64,000 nt of DNA from Thermosphaera aggregans DSM 11486 (GTDB taxonomy: Archaea > Thermoproteota > Thermoprotei_A > Sulfolobales > Desulfurococcaceae), in the NCBI RefSeq assembly GCF_000092185.1, contig NC_014160.1, forward strand, positions 868,001 through 932,000, written 5' to 3'. The first letter of the stretch is position 1. Every line of letters begins with the position of its first letter. The notes beneath the pieces were generated by a model. That model was not told the origin of the DNA, did no database searches, and saw nothing but the letters and a program-made list of their open reading frames with translations. A program made the translations under genes and the position numbers. Below are positions 4,866-52,960 of the stretch, piece by piece.

Positions 4866-4949
4866 TTCACAACCCTTTAAGACTTCCTAACGTACTACCA
4901 TAGCAATGCTTAATATGTCATCAATTAGTAAAATAAGTTGTGTGATATC

Positions 4950-5429
4950 ATGAGCGAGACTAGAAGACTCTACAGATCCAGGAGCGATAAAATCCTGTGC
5001 GGGGTCTGCGGCGGCATAGCCTCATACTTCAGGGTTGACCCCACGATCGTAAGGCTCCTTTGGGTTGCCATAACCGTATTGAGCCCCCTTCTTGGGTTAA
5101 TTCTCTACATCGTAGCATGCTTGATAATACCAGAGGAGCCGGGGCTTCAGCAACCTACTACGAGTCACCCACCACGTTTAGAGGAGAACGTGGAGGAGAG
5201 GATTCTCCTAGTGATAGGGATCATTCTACTGGTGGTTGGAGGTTTGATCATCACCAGCGTAGTTGGCGATCTTGTGAAGGACTTCGTCCGATGGGGAAGC
5301 ATAGCATGGGTTGATGAAAGACTTAGAGGGCTCGCCGGAATAGTCCTCGTGATCGTAGGATTAGTGCTGATTTTAAAGCTTCGTGAAAAACAGGTTAAGC
5401 CAGCCCCTTCCTCACAACAATCTTTGTGA
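4950..5429 (+). CDS. PspC-domain membrane protein
   Basis: PspC domain at the N-terminus (residues about 4-62): RLYRSRSDKILCGVCGGIASYF and DPTIVRLLWV followed by a membrane segment ending CLIIPEEP, all typical. Two further hydrophobic segments follow (about 87-108 and 132-150). In bacteria PspC senses envelope stress with PspA/PspB; no PspA is adjacent here, so role is inference. I chose the ATG at 4950 over an in-frame TTG at 4938 because MSETRRLYRSR fits the family start. Its 3' end overlaps the convergent nrdG by 35 bases. Confidence 0.88.
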   Translation: MSETRRLYRSRSDKILCGVCGGIASYFRVDPTIVRLLWVAITVLSPLLGLILYIVACLIIPEEPGLQQPTTSHPPRLEENVEERILLVIGIILLVVGGLIITSVVGDLVKDFVRWGSIAWVDERLRGLAGIVLVIVGLVLILKLREKQVKPAPSSQQSL

Positions 5430-46295: not shown

Positions 46296-46709
46296 TCACT
46301 TCTTTCCAAGAGTTCTAACCTTATAGGTTGCGAGAAGGATTGATGCGAGGATAATAATCAAGGCTATTCTTGAATCAACTCCTGAGAAAGTCAGCCATGA
46401 CGCGATAACGAAGAGCAGTAACCCTATGAAGATTCTCGGCGCGTTTGGCGTGAAGAAGGATTTTCTCGATGGTTGCTGAGCGTTCTCCACTCCGTAAAAC
46501 CAGAGAGCGTTAAAGTAGAGGAAGATTCCAGCGGCTAGCCCGATGCTTTCCCCTCCCGTTACAACGAGGGTTGAGGCAACCGCCGCAATTATCGATGCGA
46601 TAAAGACTGCGAAGTCCCTGAAGCTTGTTGCGAGCTTAATTCTCATAAACGTGAGTGGAACAAATAATATGGTTGCAATTAACCCGGTCGCAACAAGGTA
46701 TTCGCTCAT
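46296..46709 (-). CDS. Small membrane protein, possible fifth operon member
   Basis: 137 residues with four membrane helices (YLVATGLIATILFVPLTFM, FAVFIASIIAAVASTLVV, LAAGIFLYFNALWFYGV, RIFIGLLLFVIASWLTFSG plus one at the C-terminus). It starts 15 bases after the zinc-ribbon gene on the same strand, so it is probably the last gene of the SPFH operon. No family recognised. It could serve as a membrane anchor for that system, which is inference. Confidence 0.7.
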   Translation of the reverse strand: MSEYLVATGLIATILFVPLTFMRIKLATSFRDFAVFIASIIAAVASTLVVTGGESIGLAAGIFLYFNALWFYGVENAQQPSRKSFFTPNAPRIFIGLLLFVIASWLTFSGVDSRIALIIILASILLATYKVRTLGKK

Positions 46710-46724
46710 ACTTGTTCAACACCA

Positions 46725-48200
46725 TTATATAGTTAGCTTTAACAAGTTATTTAACTCGACTGTGAGACGAATGCTTAAACCTTTTTCATTGATGAGTGTC
46801 TTCTGGTCGAGCGTGTTGAAAGGTATGTAGACGAGGCCTACCGCCTGAGATGATGCAAAGGTTATCTTGCCCCTGTACTTGTTGTTAACGGCTTCAATAT
46901 ACCCGTCAACAAGCTTCTCGGCCAGTATGCTCGATATGAACGGGGGGAAAGCTCTCACTTCGCCGGGCATGCTTGAAGATATTGCCGATGAAACAATGTT
47001 TTTCACGAGAGAGTATCCGGGTGCTTCCTCGATTCTCTCAGGAGGCGGCATTCTCCCAGTGTATACTCCCAGGACATCTAGAACAGGGTTTTCAACGTAG
47101 GGAGGTATTGAGGCTACGAGAACGGTTAGCCTTGACTCCCCGCCCTTCCTGAAAACAATGCCCTTAACGAACGAGAACCTGCACTCTACCACGTGGAATG
47201 GAACGTAGAGACTCCCCCTACTGGGTAACACGTTTACCTCGGGCGACCCTGTCTTACTGTATGCCAGCTTTTTAAGATTATCCATAATCTCCACAAGGTC
47301 TTGAACAGGCCTCTTGAAGGTATCCCGGAGCCATTTGAAAACCCTCATGTATGTTTCAACCCATTTAACAATCTCCAATGGGTCTCTTCCAGCCGTGAAG
47401 AATTTGTGAGCAGCATCTGATAAGCGGTATATTGATTCAGCAGCAATTTTCTCAACTTCTAAAACACCTTTGTTAACCTCGGGAATCGGTGATGAACCAA
47501 CCCTCTCAAGGAGTAGATTGTATTGATCCACTCCTGTTTTCGCGAGGTCGAGAGCCGCCGCAGTGTTCCTGGCATAGAGCTGTTCAAGAGAAGCCAGCAT
47601 GGTCTTCACTGCGCTGAGCCTTTGCTTCATAAGCGTGAAGCCAGGGTCCTCAGGTATTTCTGACAATGCCTCGTCAATGTTTTTTAAAGCAGACTTTACG
47701 TCAAACCTTGACAATGCCCAGATAGCGTTGAGAACGTATCCAGCGGTGTTGCCATAAACTATTGTCTCGTAGACAAACTTTGAATCCTCCTCTGAGACTG
47801 CGAAATCCTTTACGGCCTGTATTTTTAAAGTCTCCTCGAAGAATACCTTCGGCTCCTCTCCGGGCTGGTTTGGCGGCGGAATAGGTGTCAGGGGATTTGA
47901 CAAATACTGAAGGTATTTAGCCCTAATATTTGCCCTAGCCATCAAGACCTTTGGTTTTATCAGGCCTTGAAATATTTGATGTCTAGCGGCAACATCGGCT
48001 ACTGTCGCGGAAACAGCGGCAGGGGGTAGCAATTCCCTAATCCACTTCTGTAACTCGCCCTTAAGCCTCTCAACGTAGCGGGTGGCATCCACTATCTTGT
48101 TTAAGAACCCGCAGTATTCGCATCTAACCCATTCCTCTCCCTGCTGGGGTTTTGGGAGGGGTGCTCCGCAATTAGTGCATCGCAGAGCCACGGTCTCCAT
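46725..48200 (-). CDS. Zinc-ribbon protein of SPFH operon
   Basis: 491 residues. The N-terminus is a zinc ribbon, LRCTNCGAPLPKPQQGEEWVRCEYCGFLNKI (C8, C11, C28, C31), like those of TFIIB-type ribbon proteins such as YdjG. A helical middle (about 60-320) follows and a beta-rich C-terminal domain with no membrane helix. The C-terminal part (VPFHVVECRFSFVKGIVFRK, VYTGRMPPPERIEEAPGYSLV) is unfamiliar to me. ATG start 20 bases after the previous gene. In Bacillus, YdjG-type ribbon proteins pair with SPFH YdjI. Confidence 0.75.
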   Translation of the reverse strand: METVALRCTNCGAPLPKPQQGEEWVRCEYCGFLNKIVDATRYVERLKGELQKWIRELLPPAAVSATVADVAARHQIFQGLIKPKVLMARANIRAKYLQYLSNPLTPIPPPNQPGEEPKVFFEETLKIQAVKDFAVSEEDSKFVYETIVYGNTAGYVLNAIWALSRFDVKSALKNIDEALSEIPEDPGFTLMKQRLSAVKTMLASLEQLYARNTAAALDLAKTGVDQYNLLLERVGSSPIPEVNKGVLEVEKIAAESIYRLSDAAHKFFTAGRDPLEIVKWVETYMRVFKWLRDTFKRPVQDLVEIMDNLKKLAYSKTGSPEVNVLPSRGSLYVPFHVVECRFSFVKGIVFRKGGESRLTVLVASIPPYVENPVLDVLGVYTGRMPPPERIEEAPGYSLVKNIVSSAISSSMPGEVRAFPPFISSILAEKLVDGYIEAVNNKYRGKITFASSQAVGLVYIPFNTLDQKTLINEKGLSIRLTVELNNLLKLTI

Positions 48201-48220
48201 ACTGTTTCCCCGTCCTAAAA

Positions 48221-49192
48221 CTATCTTCTCCCTACTTGAACCCTTATGGCGGAGACTCTTAATTCAAGCGAGCTTATCCTGGCGTTCAGTCTTGCCTCAA
48301 CCTCTTGGAGAGCCTTCATAGCCAGTTCGTAGTATTGCTTGGCTAGCGCATCGCTCAGGTTGTAGACCATGGTGTAACACACCCTGCACACAGCTATCTT
48401 GCCATCCGATATAAGGAAGGATGCCTCATTCCCGTACTTCTCCCGTATGTAGTTGTTAACTGATGCTGGCAAATAGACATAGTTTATTTCCTCGCCCTGT
48501 ATCTCCCTGTGGCAGACCCAGCACTTCGTAGTTTTCGACAGCCTTCCCAGCTTCTCACTTATAAAGTTTCTAATCTCAGGTGTTGCTTGTTGAAGATACG
48601 CTAAGGCCTCACTGTATAATTCAACAGCTCTCGAAGGGTTGTCAGCCTCTATTTTCAAAGCCCTTATGACCCTCGCGTATCCTAGAAGCCTGAGGCCGAC
48701 AACGCTCAACGGATCGTGAATATTCAGTAGGTCCTCGAGAATCAGCCTCCTCGCCCCTTCTCCGACTAGGATGTTGCCAACCTCCTCGTATTTTCTAGCC
48801 ACGGATTCATCCATCTTTCCAGCATCACTGATGTTGAATCTTGGGAGGCTGAAGATCATTGAGGTCAGCTCGAGATCTCTTGCAAGCTCCCCAGCAGTCG
48901 GTTTCGCAGCGATCCCGATGTCCAATTGCAGGGTTGGATCAAGTTTCCGACACAGCTCAGCGGCTTTTGAGAATGTTTCAGGGGTTTTCTTTAATAAAGC
49001 ATCGTAAAATGTTGCGTAGAAAAGGACTTCACCAGCTCTCTTGTTAATATCGGGGTCACTGGATTTAGACGCGATTTCGTAAGCGTTTAGGAAGTGTTTC
49101 ACAGCACCCTCGAGATTCCCCTTGTTCCGGTCGCTGAAGGCTTTGTTTAACTCGTCATTGAATTTATCCTTATCGCTTTTAAACAGTATCAA
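48221..49192 (-). CDS. Helical-repeat protein with Cys4 zinc site, SPFH operon
   Basis: 323 residues. The N-terminal two thirds form paired helices of TPR-like type (LNKAFSDRNKGNLEGAVKHFLNAYEIAS, RAVELYSEALAYLQQA). A zinc knuckle follows: KCWVCHREIQGEEINYVYLP and then CRVCYTMVYNLSDAL (CWVC ... CRVC). The C-terminus is a coiled coil. Starts two bases after the SPFH gene. The role is unknown; it could be a scaffold linking the SPFH assembly to the zinc-ribbon protein. Confidence 0.72.
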   Translation of the reverse strand: MILFKSDKDKFNDELNKAFSDRNKGNLEGAVKHFLNAYEIASKSSDPDINKRAGEVLFYATFYDALLKKTPETFSKAAELCRKLDPTLQLDIGIAAKPTAGELARDLELTSMIFSLPRFNISDAGKMDESVARKYEEVGNILVGEGARRLILEDLLNIHDPLSVVGLRLLGYARVIRALKIEADNPSRAVELYSEALAYLQQATPEIRNFISEKLGRLSKTTKCWVCHREIQGEEINYVYLPASVNNYIREKYGNEASFLISDGKIAVCRVCYTMVYNLSDALAKQYYELAMKALQEVEARLNARISSLELRVSAIRVQVGRR

Positions 49193-49194
49193 GG

Positions 49195-50208
49195 CTACAT
49201 CTCCTTCCTATACTTTTCAAGGAGCTCCTTCCTCAACTGGTCATACTCCTCCTGGGTTATCAAGCCTTCGTCAAGCATTTTCTTCAGCTCTCTAAGCTTA
49301 GCTACAATCGGGCTTTCCTGCACCTGGGCCGGCACTTGCGGTGGCTGAGAAGGCACCTGCTGAGGTTGCTGCGGCTGTGTCGGCGGGATAGCCTGTTGCA
49401 TTAAGGTGGGCATGGCTACAAGGGCCCCCATCCAGCCCGCCGCCGGGGATTTACCGAGAGCCCTCATGACTTCGACCGTTTTGACAATCTCCAATACCTT
49501 GTCCTCATCCCCCTTCTGGATTGCGAGTAGGAGGGGTAGCCCGTATGTCGGATCCTCCTTCTCCATTCTCTCAAGCTGGGGTAGCGTTATACCAGCTATC
49601 TTAACATCGATTAGCTCTAACCCTCTCTGGGCGAATGCATCCTGAATCGCTCCAGCTTTCAGCCTAGAGGTTACCTGGGTGAGGTTGGTGTAGATGTCTA
49701 TTGCAGTGTACTTGCTGATCTCCTGTATCAACGTCTCCACGAAGTAGTTTCTTATAAAATCAGCCACCGCGGTTGACGTTAACTCTCTAACTGCTCCCGC
49801 TACTTGTGTTAGAAAGAGAACCGGGTCTGAAACCCTGTACCAGAATTCCCCAAAGCTCTGGAGCTCCGTCATGTAAAGTGTGCGCGGGCCTAGCTTCACT
49901 CTTGTCGACAGCCCGAACTTCCCCCTGAACTGCTTCAACGATACAAATACTATCCTGGCCTTGAACGGTGTCTCGCCGTAGCCTGCAACAAGTCTGAAAG
50001 CCCTTGTGAGAAGCGGCAGGTTCTGAGTTGTCAGTACGTGCCTACCGGGAGGGAGAACGTCGTAAATCTTCCCATCCCGCATGAACACTGCTGTCTCATA
50101 CTCGTGCACTACTAGTACGCTTCCCCATCTAATGTCCTCGAACGGGTAGACCCATAAAATGTCCTCGGGACCCGGGTTAACCCATTCTATAACGTTCGTC
50201 CTGCTCAC
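49195..50208 (-). CDS. SPFH/band 7 protein with C-terminal SHOCT
   Basis: 337 residues of the YdjI / virion-core-like SPFH branch: VIEWVNPGPEDILWVYPFEDIRWGSVLVVHEYETAVFMRDGKI, VLPPGRHVLTTQNLPLLTRAF, then FGEFWYRVSDPVLFLTQV. The SPFH core spans about 1-240. A Pro/Gln-rich linker (about 270-300) precedes a SHOCT helix pair (LRELKKMLDEGLITQEEYDQLRKELLEKY). No N-terminal membrane helix, so it should act at the inner membrane face by oligomerising. Lies between a helical protein gene and a TPR-zinc gene, with gaps of six and two bases. Confidence 0.9.
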   Translation of the reverse strand: MSRTNVIEWVNPGPEDILWVYPFEDIRWGSVLVVHEYETAVFMRDGKIYDVLPPGRHVLTTQNLPLLTRAFRLVAGYGETPFKARIVFVSLKQFRGKFGLSTRVKLGPRTLYMTELQSFGEFWYRVSDPVLFLTQVAGAVRELTSTAVADFIRNYFVETLIQEISKYTAIDIYTNLTQVTSRLKAGAIQDAFAQRGLELIDVKIAGITLPQLERMEKEDPTYGLPLLLAIQKGDEDKVLEIVKTVEVMRALGKSPAAGWMGALVAMPTLMQQAIPPTQPQQPQQVPSQPPQVPAQVQESPIVAKLRELKKMLDEGLITQEEYDQLRKELLEKYRKEM

Positions 50209-50214
50209 GCATCA

Positions 50215-50727
50215 TCACCTTGCAATCCCCGACAATATCCTATCCCTTTCCTCTAGCAGAGACTGATATTTTTCAATAAGCTTTTCAACATCGGATAGAA
50301 ACTTTTCAACCTCTAGAATGCTGGACGGCCTGCTTGAAGTGGTCTTATTCAATTCTTCAACAGTAACACCCATGTTTAAATCATGCTCAAGGATTCTGTC
50401 CAGGACGTTCTCATCAACCTTGAAAGCGTGGAAAAGAGGTCTATATCCGTAAGGCGCGTGTCTAGTTTTCTCGGCAAGCGAGTCAAGCCTGTATATGAGC
50501 TTCTCGACGCGTTCCGAGGCTGGCGTGGAGCCTGCTGACGACACTATGGTTGAGTAAAAGTTTTTCAGATCTGAAACACTCTTCTTGAGCTTCCTGTAAA
50601 GCTCATCCCTGACAACCCTGTCGGTTTCCCTGACAAGTTCTTTCTCCTTATAACCCTTGTACCCGGGAAACATCATTAGAAGCTTCTCGTAGAGCCTGAG
50701 GTCGGGCGAAGGCTTACTATCAGACAT
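50215..50727 (-). CDS. Helical protein, first gene of SPFH operon
   Basis: 170 residues, almost wholly helical and charged. The segment MMFPGYKGYKEKELVRETDRVVRDELYRKL recalls bacterial proteins found next to SPFH genes, but I cannot name a domain. It may play the PspA-like structural part in this operon, by position only; no PspA sequence features are seen. ATG start at 50727, divergent from the surface-protein gene by about 150 bases. Confidence 0.68.
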   Translation of the reverse strand: MSDSKPSPDLRLYEKLLMMFPGYKGYKEKELVRETDRVVRDELYRKLKKSVSDLKNFYSTIVSSAGSTPASERVEKLIYRLDSLAEKTRHAPYGYRPLFHAFKVDENVLDRILEHDLNMGVTVEELNKTTSSRPSSILEVEKFLSDVEKLIEKYQSLLEERDRILSGIAR

Positions 50728-50875
50728 TACAACACCATGTTAATATCTAGTTGTCTTCAACCTAATATATTAAAGCGGGGGAGTATAATCATTCAGGGTT
50801 TTGAACGTTGTCAGCGGCCCGTTAATCTTTCGAATTTATTAGTTATCGAGGGATTAATAATAGTTGAGGCTGGGT

Positions 50876-52960
50876 ATGAATGAGGGGGTAAAAGCAATCC
50901 TGGTTCTAATGATAGCGGCCTTAATTTTATTCCCGCTCGCCGTCGGAAAACATGTCGGAAACCATTCCCAGGACGGTGTGGAACCCCTCGGGTTGAAAAT
51001 CCCTATTGACGACCACCCCTTCGCCTCATACACTATAGAGCCAAACCTAGTCTACTACGGTGGGAAGTACTATACTTCAATACTCAACATAACCCAGGGT
51101 TCTTACATCGAGGGAAACATCACGTTCTTCATGATAGACCCTGCCACGGGCCAGGTCGAGAAGAGGGTGTTAACCGATAACCTGGGGGTTGATAACTATC
51201 TCGTCCTAGCTGGCGATAAGTTAGCGCTCGCGTACACTCGTTTCTCTAATACTACCTACTATAGGGATTTAAGCCTGTTACTACTTGACCCTGTGAATGG
51301 AAGTGTTCTAGCGAACATACCCGTGGCACATACTTTAGGGATTCATGATGAATACCCTGTAGTGGCTTATAATCCATTGAACAACATGCTCGGCATAGCT
51401 CACTTCATGAGCAATACATCCTACAGGGGTTTCGCTCTTTCCATCCTGGACTTGTCAACCCAGACGGTAGTTAAAACCTACCTAGTCCCACCCAATACGA
51501 CGCTGACGTATACCGGAATAAGCTTCAACATCGCGCCCCTGGGAGACGGATTCCTATTCCTGTACGTCAACGATACATCAACACCTGGTGAGATAGATTT
51601 AAACCCGGTCTTCATCAACATGACCGGTGTTTACAACCTCCCTGCGATCCCGACTCCAGGGGCTAATGAGACCCTGGGCGATATAATTTGGATGAGGGCG
51701 CCTAATTACACCAGAACTGATGCGATTTACTCATCGTTCATGCCAGTAGTCATTTCAAGTCACAGAGTCCTTTTCACAGGATATACAGTAAACGCGGACA
51801 GCTCGAGAAGCGTGTTCATTGTCGAGGCTAAGATGGTTGATGGAGAGGTGGTTTTGAGAACGGTCACGCTCGGACAGGGGCACTACCCCTCTATCGCCGT
51901 TGGATCTTCAACTATAGCGTTAGCCTACTCCTCCCCAGGCGCCGGAGGATACGACATAATACTCAAAGTTCTCGATATTGAGAGCCTCAATGAAATAGCC
52001 ATGGTCAACCTGAGCAGGTTGGCCGGGACTTATGATTACAATGAAGCATATGTGAAAATAGCCTACTCGCCTATGGGGTACTATATCGTTGCGTGGGGCG
52101 TGTTAAATAATGGAACATACGTGATCGTGGCTGGGGGCATCAAGGAGAGAAGCTTAGGGTTCACCGGCTTGATAACGCTCCCAACCACGTCAACCATGAA
52201 CGCAACTACTGTAAGAATCGGTGTGGACGGGTCTGACGGGTTTGCCATATTGTACAGAGAGTATAAAATCGCGACCAACGAGTCAAACATATACATGTTC
52301 CTCGGTAAAATAGGTGTAGATCTCCCACCGATAACCGAGACAACAACAATCACCGAGACGGTTACAACCACCACAACCTTGACGACGACAAGCACCGTGA
52401 CAGAGACTGCTACAACAACCACAACTATCACTGAAACCACTACATCCACTACCGTCGTGACTGAGACAACGACAACAACCAGCACTGCAACAGAAACTAT
52501 TACCGAGACCACAACTCAAACAATCACATCCACCGCTACAACCACCACAACTATTACTACGACCACCCTTGTCAATGAAACCACTACAACGACCACAACC
52601 GAGACGCATTACACAACAATACCGACCACGGTAACCTCAACTATCACCGAGACCTCGACCGTTACGGAGACATCTCTAATTCCGACCACGACCACTATTG
52701 TGGAAACCTCACACACCACTATAACTCAGACCATAAGGCAAACAATTACGGACACGGTAACCAACACCGTATATACTACTGTAACGGAAACCGAGACGCA
52801 GACTGCAACAAGAACAATAACAAGTACTGAGTGGACAACATCCACCAAGACCGAAACATACACCACGAGCATCCTTGAGACTTCAACAGGAGTAGCCGGG
52901 GCTATCGCAACACTCGTGGCCGGATTCCTCATTGGTTGGCTCGTAAGAAGGACAAGATAG
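50876..52960 (+). CDS. Thr-rich cell-surface protein with membrane anchor
   Basis: 694 residues. Signal peptide at the N-terminus (VKAILVLMIAALILFPLAVG), a beta-rich ectodomain (about 40-485) with many N-x-S/T glycosylation sites and beta-propeller-like repeats, a Thr-Thr-rich stalk with repeated TTTTTET-like stretches (about 485-660), and a C-terminal helix (AGAIATLVAGFLIGWLVRRTR). This resembles S-layer-associated or adhesin proteins of Desulfurococcales, by architecture only. ATG 50876 has GAGG before it; TTG 50864 is an alternative. Stalk probably heavily O-glycosylated. Confidence 0.82.
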   Translation: MNEGVKAILVLMIAALILFPLAVGKHVGNHSQDGVEPLGLKIPIDDHPFASYTIEPNLVYYGGKYYTSILNITQGSYIEGNITFFMIDPATGQVEKRVLTDNLGVDNYLVLAGDKLALAYTRFSNTTYYRDLSLLLLDPVNGSVLANIPVAHTLGIHDEYPVVAYNPLNNMLGIAHFMSNTSYRGFALSILDLSTQTVVKTYLVPPNTTLTYTGISFNIAPLGDGFLFLYVNDTSTPGEIDLNPVFINMTGVYNLPAIPTPGANETLGDIIWMRAPNYTRTDAIYSSFMPVVISSHRVLFTGYTVNADSSRSVFIVEAKMVDGEVVLRTVTLGQGHYPSIAVGSSTIALAYSSPGAGGYDIILKVLDIESLNEIAMVNLSRLAGTYDYNEAYVKIAYSPMGYYIVAWGVLNNGTYVIVAGGIKERSLGFTGLITLPTTSTMNATTVRIGVDGSDGFAILYREYKIATNESNIYMFLGKIGVDLPPITETTTITETVTTTTTLTTTSTVTETATTTTTITETTTSTTVVTETTTTTSTATETITETTTQTITSTATTTTTITTTTLVNETTTTTTTETHYTTIPTTVTSTITETSTVTETSLIPTTTTIVETSHTTITQTIRQTITDTVTNTVYTTVTETETQTATRTITSTEWTTSTKTETYTTSILETSTGVAGAIATLVAGFLIGWLVRRTR

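Follow-up and report, generated by a model that had tools for sequence, protein, structure and literature searches.

Five adjacent genes of Thermosphaera aggregans DSM 11486 are part of a little-described archaeal gene set that probably builds a protein scaffold lining the inside of the cell membrane, and in which a small protein, here called P170, and a soluble SPFH protein form a near-obligate pair. The genes lie in a stretch of 64,000 nucleotides (the window) of the host genome, which consists of one contig of 1,316,595 bp. The unit and the features found next to it are the following:

50763-50774, minus strand: TATA-like box TTTAATATATTA, 5' of P170, read from the sequence
50215-50727, minus strand: P170, open reading frame of 170 amino acids
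49195-50208, minus strand: SPFH-SHOCT protein, open reading frame of 337 amino acids
48221-49192, minus strand: P323, open reading frame of 323 amino acids
46725-48200, minus strand: P491, open reading frame of 491 amino acids
46296-46709, minus strand: P137, open reading frame of 137 amino acids
46124-46281, plus strand: intron-containing tRNA gene (Rfam RF00005, 47 bits; sequence)

As indicated by the original prediction, the list of open reading frames places the first four genes on the minus strand with gaps of 6, 2 and 20 bases, and the gene for P137 follows after 15 bases. Each of the five proteins has homologues within the host's order down to approximately 30-40% identity, so that the open reading frames can be taken as real genes. 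The TATA-like box, which has comparable A/T boxes 5' of P170 at three other loci (L091, L092 and L093), is likely to be the promoter of the operon. The tRNA gene, which is convergent with the operon and lies 14 bases past P137, marks the edge of the unit and is not one of its members. It was found by Rfam, not by ARAGORN, with an intron sequence inside the gene, and it is probably a tRNA-Pro (GGG), as assigned by eye. On the P170 side, the unit is bounded by a divergent gene (50864-52960, plus strand), the 698-residue product of which contains a long Thr-rich stretch and a C-terminal membrane anchor, gives no Pfam match and is a probable surface protein; a similar gene is found at the same place at locus L091.

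The order P170-SPFH-P323-P491-P137 is kept in 13 genomes, namely 10 of the host's order (from four genera), two further bins and one korarchaeon, and the conservation of both order and strand across relatives bears out the earlier proposal of one operon. Rereading of the loci demonstrated the complete order on the same strand in the window and at L091, L092, L093, L095, L096, L097, L098 and L099, while in one more genome the unit is split by a contig break (L034/L094). Outside the sample of 98 genomes of the host's order, the complete unit was found at L131, L132 and in Candidatus Methanodesulfokora (L134); L133 and L130 repeat L099 and L034, respectively. Desulfurococcales are not the only carriers of the five-gene form: it is also present in the korarchaeon, with only the first four genes in a Thermococci bin (L140) and a rearranged order (P323-P491-TM-P170-SPFH) in Thermoplasmatota (L160, L202). 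Among the 98 genomes, real matches were obtained for P323 in 10, for P491 in 11, for P170 in 40 and for the SPFH domain in 41. Within the host's phylum, a real P323 is present in 9 of 349 genomes; few genomes thus have the five-gene form, which makes P323 and P491 accessories rather than parts of the core. Single-sequence matches of P323 in G001 and G060 (E 7e-4) and profile matches in f15 genomes were discarded as short partial stretches. Genome G083 harbours, in addition to its other copy, a decayed second copy of the module (L100, G083:C1:268000-279000) with two P323 paralogues, one of which has an internal stop, a truncated SPFH gene and a P491 fragment, an indication of transfer and loss.

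The core of the set is formed by P170 and the SPFH protein. Both are present in 40 of the 98 genomes of the order, neither in 57 and SPFH alone in one (p = 8e-27), and rereading of this lone case (L115) revealed P170 there too. For pairs on the same contig, the two genes lie within 400 bases of each other in 34 of 39 cases. A scan of 84,980 species yielded 483 relatives of P170, and in the best 80 of these the SPFH gene is directly downstream in 79, with a median gap of 1 base; these 80 loci span Bathyarchaeota, Thermofilales, Nitrososphaeria, Hadarchaeota, Thermoplasmatota, a korarchaeon and one actinobacterial bin. The operon linkage is not absolute, since the genes are 31 kb apart in G090 and on separate contigs in G005. 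P170 was not found in any of 14 model genomes. Its N-terminal part contains a conserved PGYRGYKxKExxRExDR motif, with an invariant P-G-x-x-G-Y...R...D...R pattern. The family, which extends over hundreds of genomes, has no Pfam match; residues 22-163 match the Leptospira family NF047596 (LIMLP_15305) of NCBIfam with E 3.5e-10, but the score, 40 bits, does not reach the cut-off of 210 bits, and P170 is only a distant homologue of it.

Two variants of the locus deserve mention. In Bathyarchaeota (L150 and similar loci), the P170-SPFH pair is accompanied by a 4-TM protein and a 250-residue zinc-ribbon protein amid housekeeping genes, such as those for lysyl-tRNA synthetase and an FAD-dependent oxidoreductase. 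At the Sulfolobaceae-like loci L106, L107, L112, L116, L126 and L128, the SPFH protein has neither SHOCT nor zinc tails and its gene is followed by that of a conserved 140-residue membrane protein, which was considered as a P137 homologue and rejected for want of a profile match (0.06%).

The SPFH protein matches Band_7_1 (PF13421, E 1.5e-29, 103.5 bits, cut-off 24) and PF01145 (E 7.1e-15), and ends in a SHOCT domain (PF09851, residues 304-330, E 9.8e-8, 32 bits versus a cut-off of 27). Thus, the SPFH-SHOCT identity initially assigned to it was confirmed by two matches above cut-off, and the PF13421 family match agrees with a YdjI-type SPFH protein at the centre of the operon. No transmembrane segment was detected by a TM scan in the protein or in any of 38 homologues. 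Because SHOCT takes the place where a C-terminal zinc ribbon is expected, the protein is a variant of the YdjI type. At most P170-SPFH loci, zinc ribbons are found in the SPFH tail, that of L129 matching DZR. In the tree, the SHOCT-tailed proteins form a single clade (support, 100/99), and P323 adjoins them in 14 of 15 distinct members, the exception (L135, with SHOCT tail and no P323) indicating that P323 is not a strict requirement for the tail exchange. Zinc-tailed SPFH proteins have P323 alongside only in the Thermoplasmatota loci L160 and L202, and these are among those closest to the SHOCT clade in the tree. From this placement, the arrival of P323 and P491 probably preceded the exchange of the zinc tail for SHOCT; the zinc function may thereby have moved from the SPFH tail to P323 and P491. 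A canonical stomatin-type SPFH protein is also encoded elsewhere in the genome (C1:414549-415061).

The two accessory proteins largely correspond to what had been read from the sequence. The CxxC/CxxC knuckle of P323 (C224, C227, C269 and C272), located in its C-terminal third, is invariant in 16 homologues, as are W225, R229, G233 and D281. Its description as TPR-like is in line with the family, 4 of 16 members of which match TPR_12 with values down to E 1.9e-6; the window protein itself reaches only E 0.01. Matches to the MIT domain (E 0.0026-0.007) and to the C-terminal domain of leukotriene A4 hydrolase (E 8.5e-4) fell below cut-off and were set aside as helical look-alikes. P491 is a zinc-ribbon protein, as proposed (C27 and C30 invariant; C8 and C11 conserved in more than 90%), with the N-terminal ribbon followed by an α-solenoid (residues approx. 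70-316) and a C-terminal α/β domain (approx. 322-480). Comparison of its AF2 model (pLDDT 89.9, pTM 0.86) with the PDB yielded assorted TPR-like and designed helical proteins and no significant fold match. A common family of P491 and the shorter zinc-ribbon/TM proteins of other loci was rejected, and the two are treated as analogous, since their joint alignment is convincing only across the zinc ribbon. One of the shorter proteins (L122:6892-7824) gave a weak PepSY match (E 0.031).

The 137-residue protein has the four hydrophobic segments expected of it, as found by a TM scan. Among the best 80 P170-SPFH loci, small 4-TM proteins are encoded directly downstream in 25 and upstream in 13. In profile comparisons, P137 matched these downstream and upstream sets at 90% and 83%, respectively, and the sets matched each other at 98%. 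These profiles place P137, in diverged form, within a family of small 4-TM proteins that stands beside the core in many lineages; such a protein is thus a regular component of the module and not there by chance. Gene order and topology make it a probable candidate for the membrane anchor.

The archaeal module resembles a bacterial membrane-stress module, from which its partner proteins differ. In B. subtilis, the SPFH protein YdjI is soluble and depends on the membrane proteins YdjG and YdjH for reaching the membrane; it alters membrane fluidity (PMC8581546) and carries a zinc-ribbon tail (PMC11237479). The archaeal unit and pspA-ydjGHI share a soluble Band_7_1 SPFH protein without a membrane helix of its own, an operon organization, and zinc-ribbon and membrane proteins as partners (PMC8581546, PMC11237479). 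Unlike the bacterial operon, the archaeal unit contains no PspA and no TPM-domain YdjH (TPM match in 0 of the 5 proteins), its SPFH tail is SHOCT rather than a zinc ribbon, and nothing equivalent to P170 or P323 is known from it. The initial YdjG-type reading of P491 was not borne out: YdjG consists of two zinc ribbons, a YpeB-like domain and a TM segment, whereas in P491 one zinc ribbon, no TM helix (TM scan) and no YpeB/PepSY match were found. Zinc-tailed archaeal modules (such as L122, L150 and L188) have in common with the unit the P170-SPFH pair, a small 4-TM protein and one or more zinc-ribbon proteins, but differ by the CxxC-pair zinc ribbons on SPFH, by shorter zinc-ribbon partners, several with a C-terminal TM segment, and by lacking P323, except in Thermoplasmatota. 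Plasmid-encoded YdjI-like SPFH proteins (Paracoccus and Novosphingobium) show approximately 30% identity over the SPFH domain. In Paracoccus a zinc-ribbon protein adjoins, as in the archaeal unit, but the other plasmid partners differ (TelA-like/DUF2927 or DUF4178/DUF350/polyamine aminopropyltransferase), and P170 is not annotated. The Paracoccus order (L237) is a toxic-anion-resistance (TelA-like) gene and DUF2927, then the YdjI-like SPFH gene, then that of the zinc-ribbon protein.

On balance, we favour as the product of the operon an SPFH scaffold that is independent of PspA and tethered to the membrane, with P323 and P491 as zinc adaptors. The SPFH protein would oligomerize on the cytoplasmic face of the membrane, with P170 bound to it as a constant structural subunit through the conserved N-terminal motif. 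By analogy with YdjI, which requires YdjG and YdjH, the assembly would be held in the membrane by P137. P323 and P491 would be the TPR/zinc adaptors that dock on the SHOCT tail to bring in clients or retain them. In the cell, the scaffold, again by analogy with B. subtilis YdjI, probably serves membrane integrity, or the assembly and quality control of membrane complexes. A more general proposal is put forward tentatively: soluble SPFH proteins of one class, spread across the archaea, may be defined by P170 as their obligate partner, and the two may form, with a small 4-TM protein, an ancient PspA-independent membrane scaffold; in one clade, the zinc function of the SPFH tail would have been transferred in trans to P323 and P491 and the tail turned into a docking module of the SHOCT type.

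As presumed interaction modules, the SHOCT and zinc-ribbon tails would also suit a cytoplasmic assembly or chaperone platform, in which SPFH and the zinc/TPR adaptors assemble or protect certain client complexes (for instance, of the membrane-bound hydrogenase type) and the membrane protein is only a docking site. The TPR-like P323 and the α-solenoid of P491 could act as such adaptors, and a chaperone-like role has been proposed for band-7 proteins (PMC11237479). However, no constant client gene accompanies the core across lineages, the neighbours being unrelated housekeeping genes, and we regard this possibility as unlikely.

Less probable still is a Psp-like membrane-stress module with P170 standing in for PspA, as an ESCRT-III-like remodeller recruited by SPFH. 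The YdjI-type SPFH protein, the lack of PspA originally claimed (no PF04012 match in the genome) and a PspC-domain protein encoded in the same window (4938-5429, plus strand) would fit it. The latter had been called distant; its presence was verified, and the match is in fact clear (PF04024, E 4.4e-24), but the gene lies approximately 41 kb off on the opposite strand. Moreover, PspA is over cut-off in none of the order's 98 genomes, and the 57 with neither P170 nor this SPFH protein are no exception, so that it is missing irrespective of P170. The AF2 model of P170 (pLDDT 83.7) shows four helices packed into a compact bundle; a long helical hairpin is absent and no helix exceeds 36 residues. 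It matches no solved fold in the PDB better than E 0.058, and PspA is not among the matches listed; the best of these, talin/vinculin bundles, were rejected as generic helical bundles (TM-score <0.5). Thus, the original idea that P170 replaces PspA is not supported, given a model unlike PspA and the absence of PspA from the whole order. An antiviral or conflict system is most improbable: the patchy distribution of the five-gene form and the decayed G083 copy suggest transfer, but PADLOC models gave no match except a trivial one to Avs2 (E 0.003), no effector domain is present, P170 was not found in searches of viral contigs and plasmids, and the core often sits amid housekeeping genes.

No description of the archaeal SPFH/SHOCT/zinc module was found in the open-access literature, subscription papers being outside the scope of the search. 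Bacterial membrane-protection modules with a soluble SPFH protein have been understood through PspA. The large archaeal group described here combines that type of SPFH protein with another constant partner and lacks PspA, and can be used to study what the SPFH protein does by itself. P323 and P491, like the P170 family, are conserved unannotated proteins, and Sulfolobaceae-like genomes, for which genetics is available, carry the core pair. What such common short tails do can be tested directly on the clade in which SHOCT has taken the place of the zinc ribbon.
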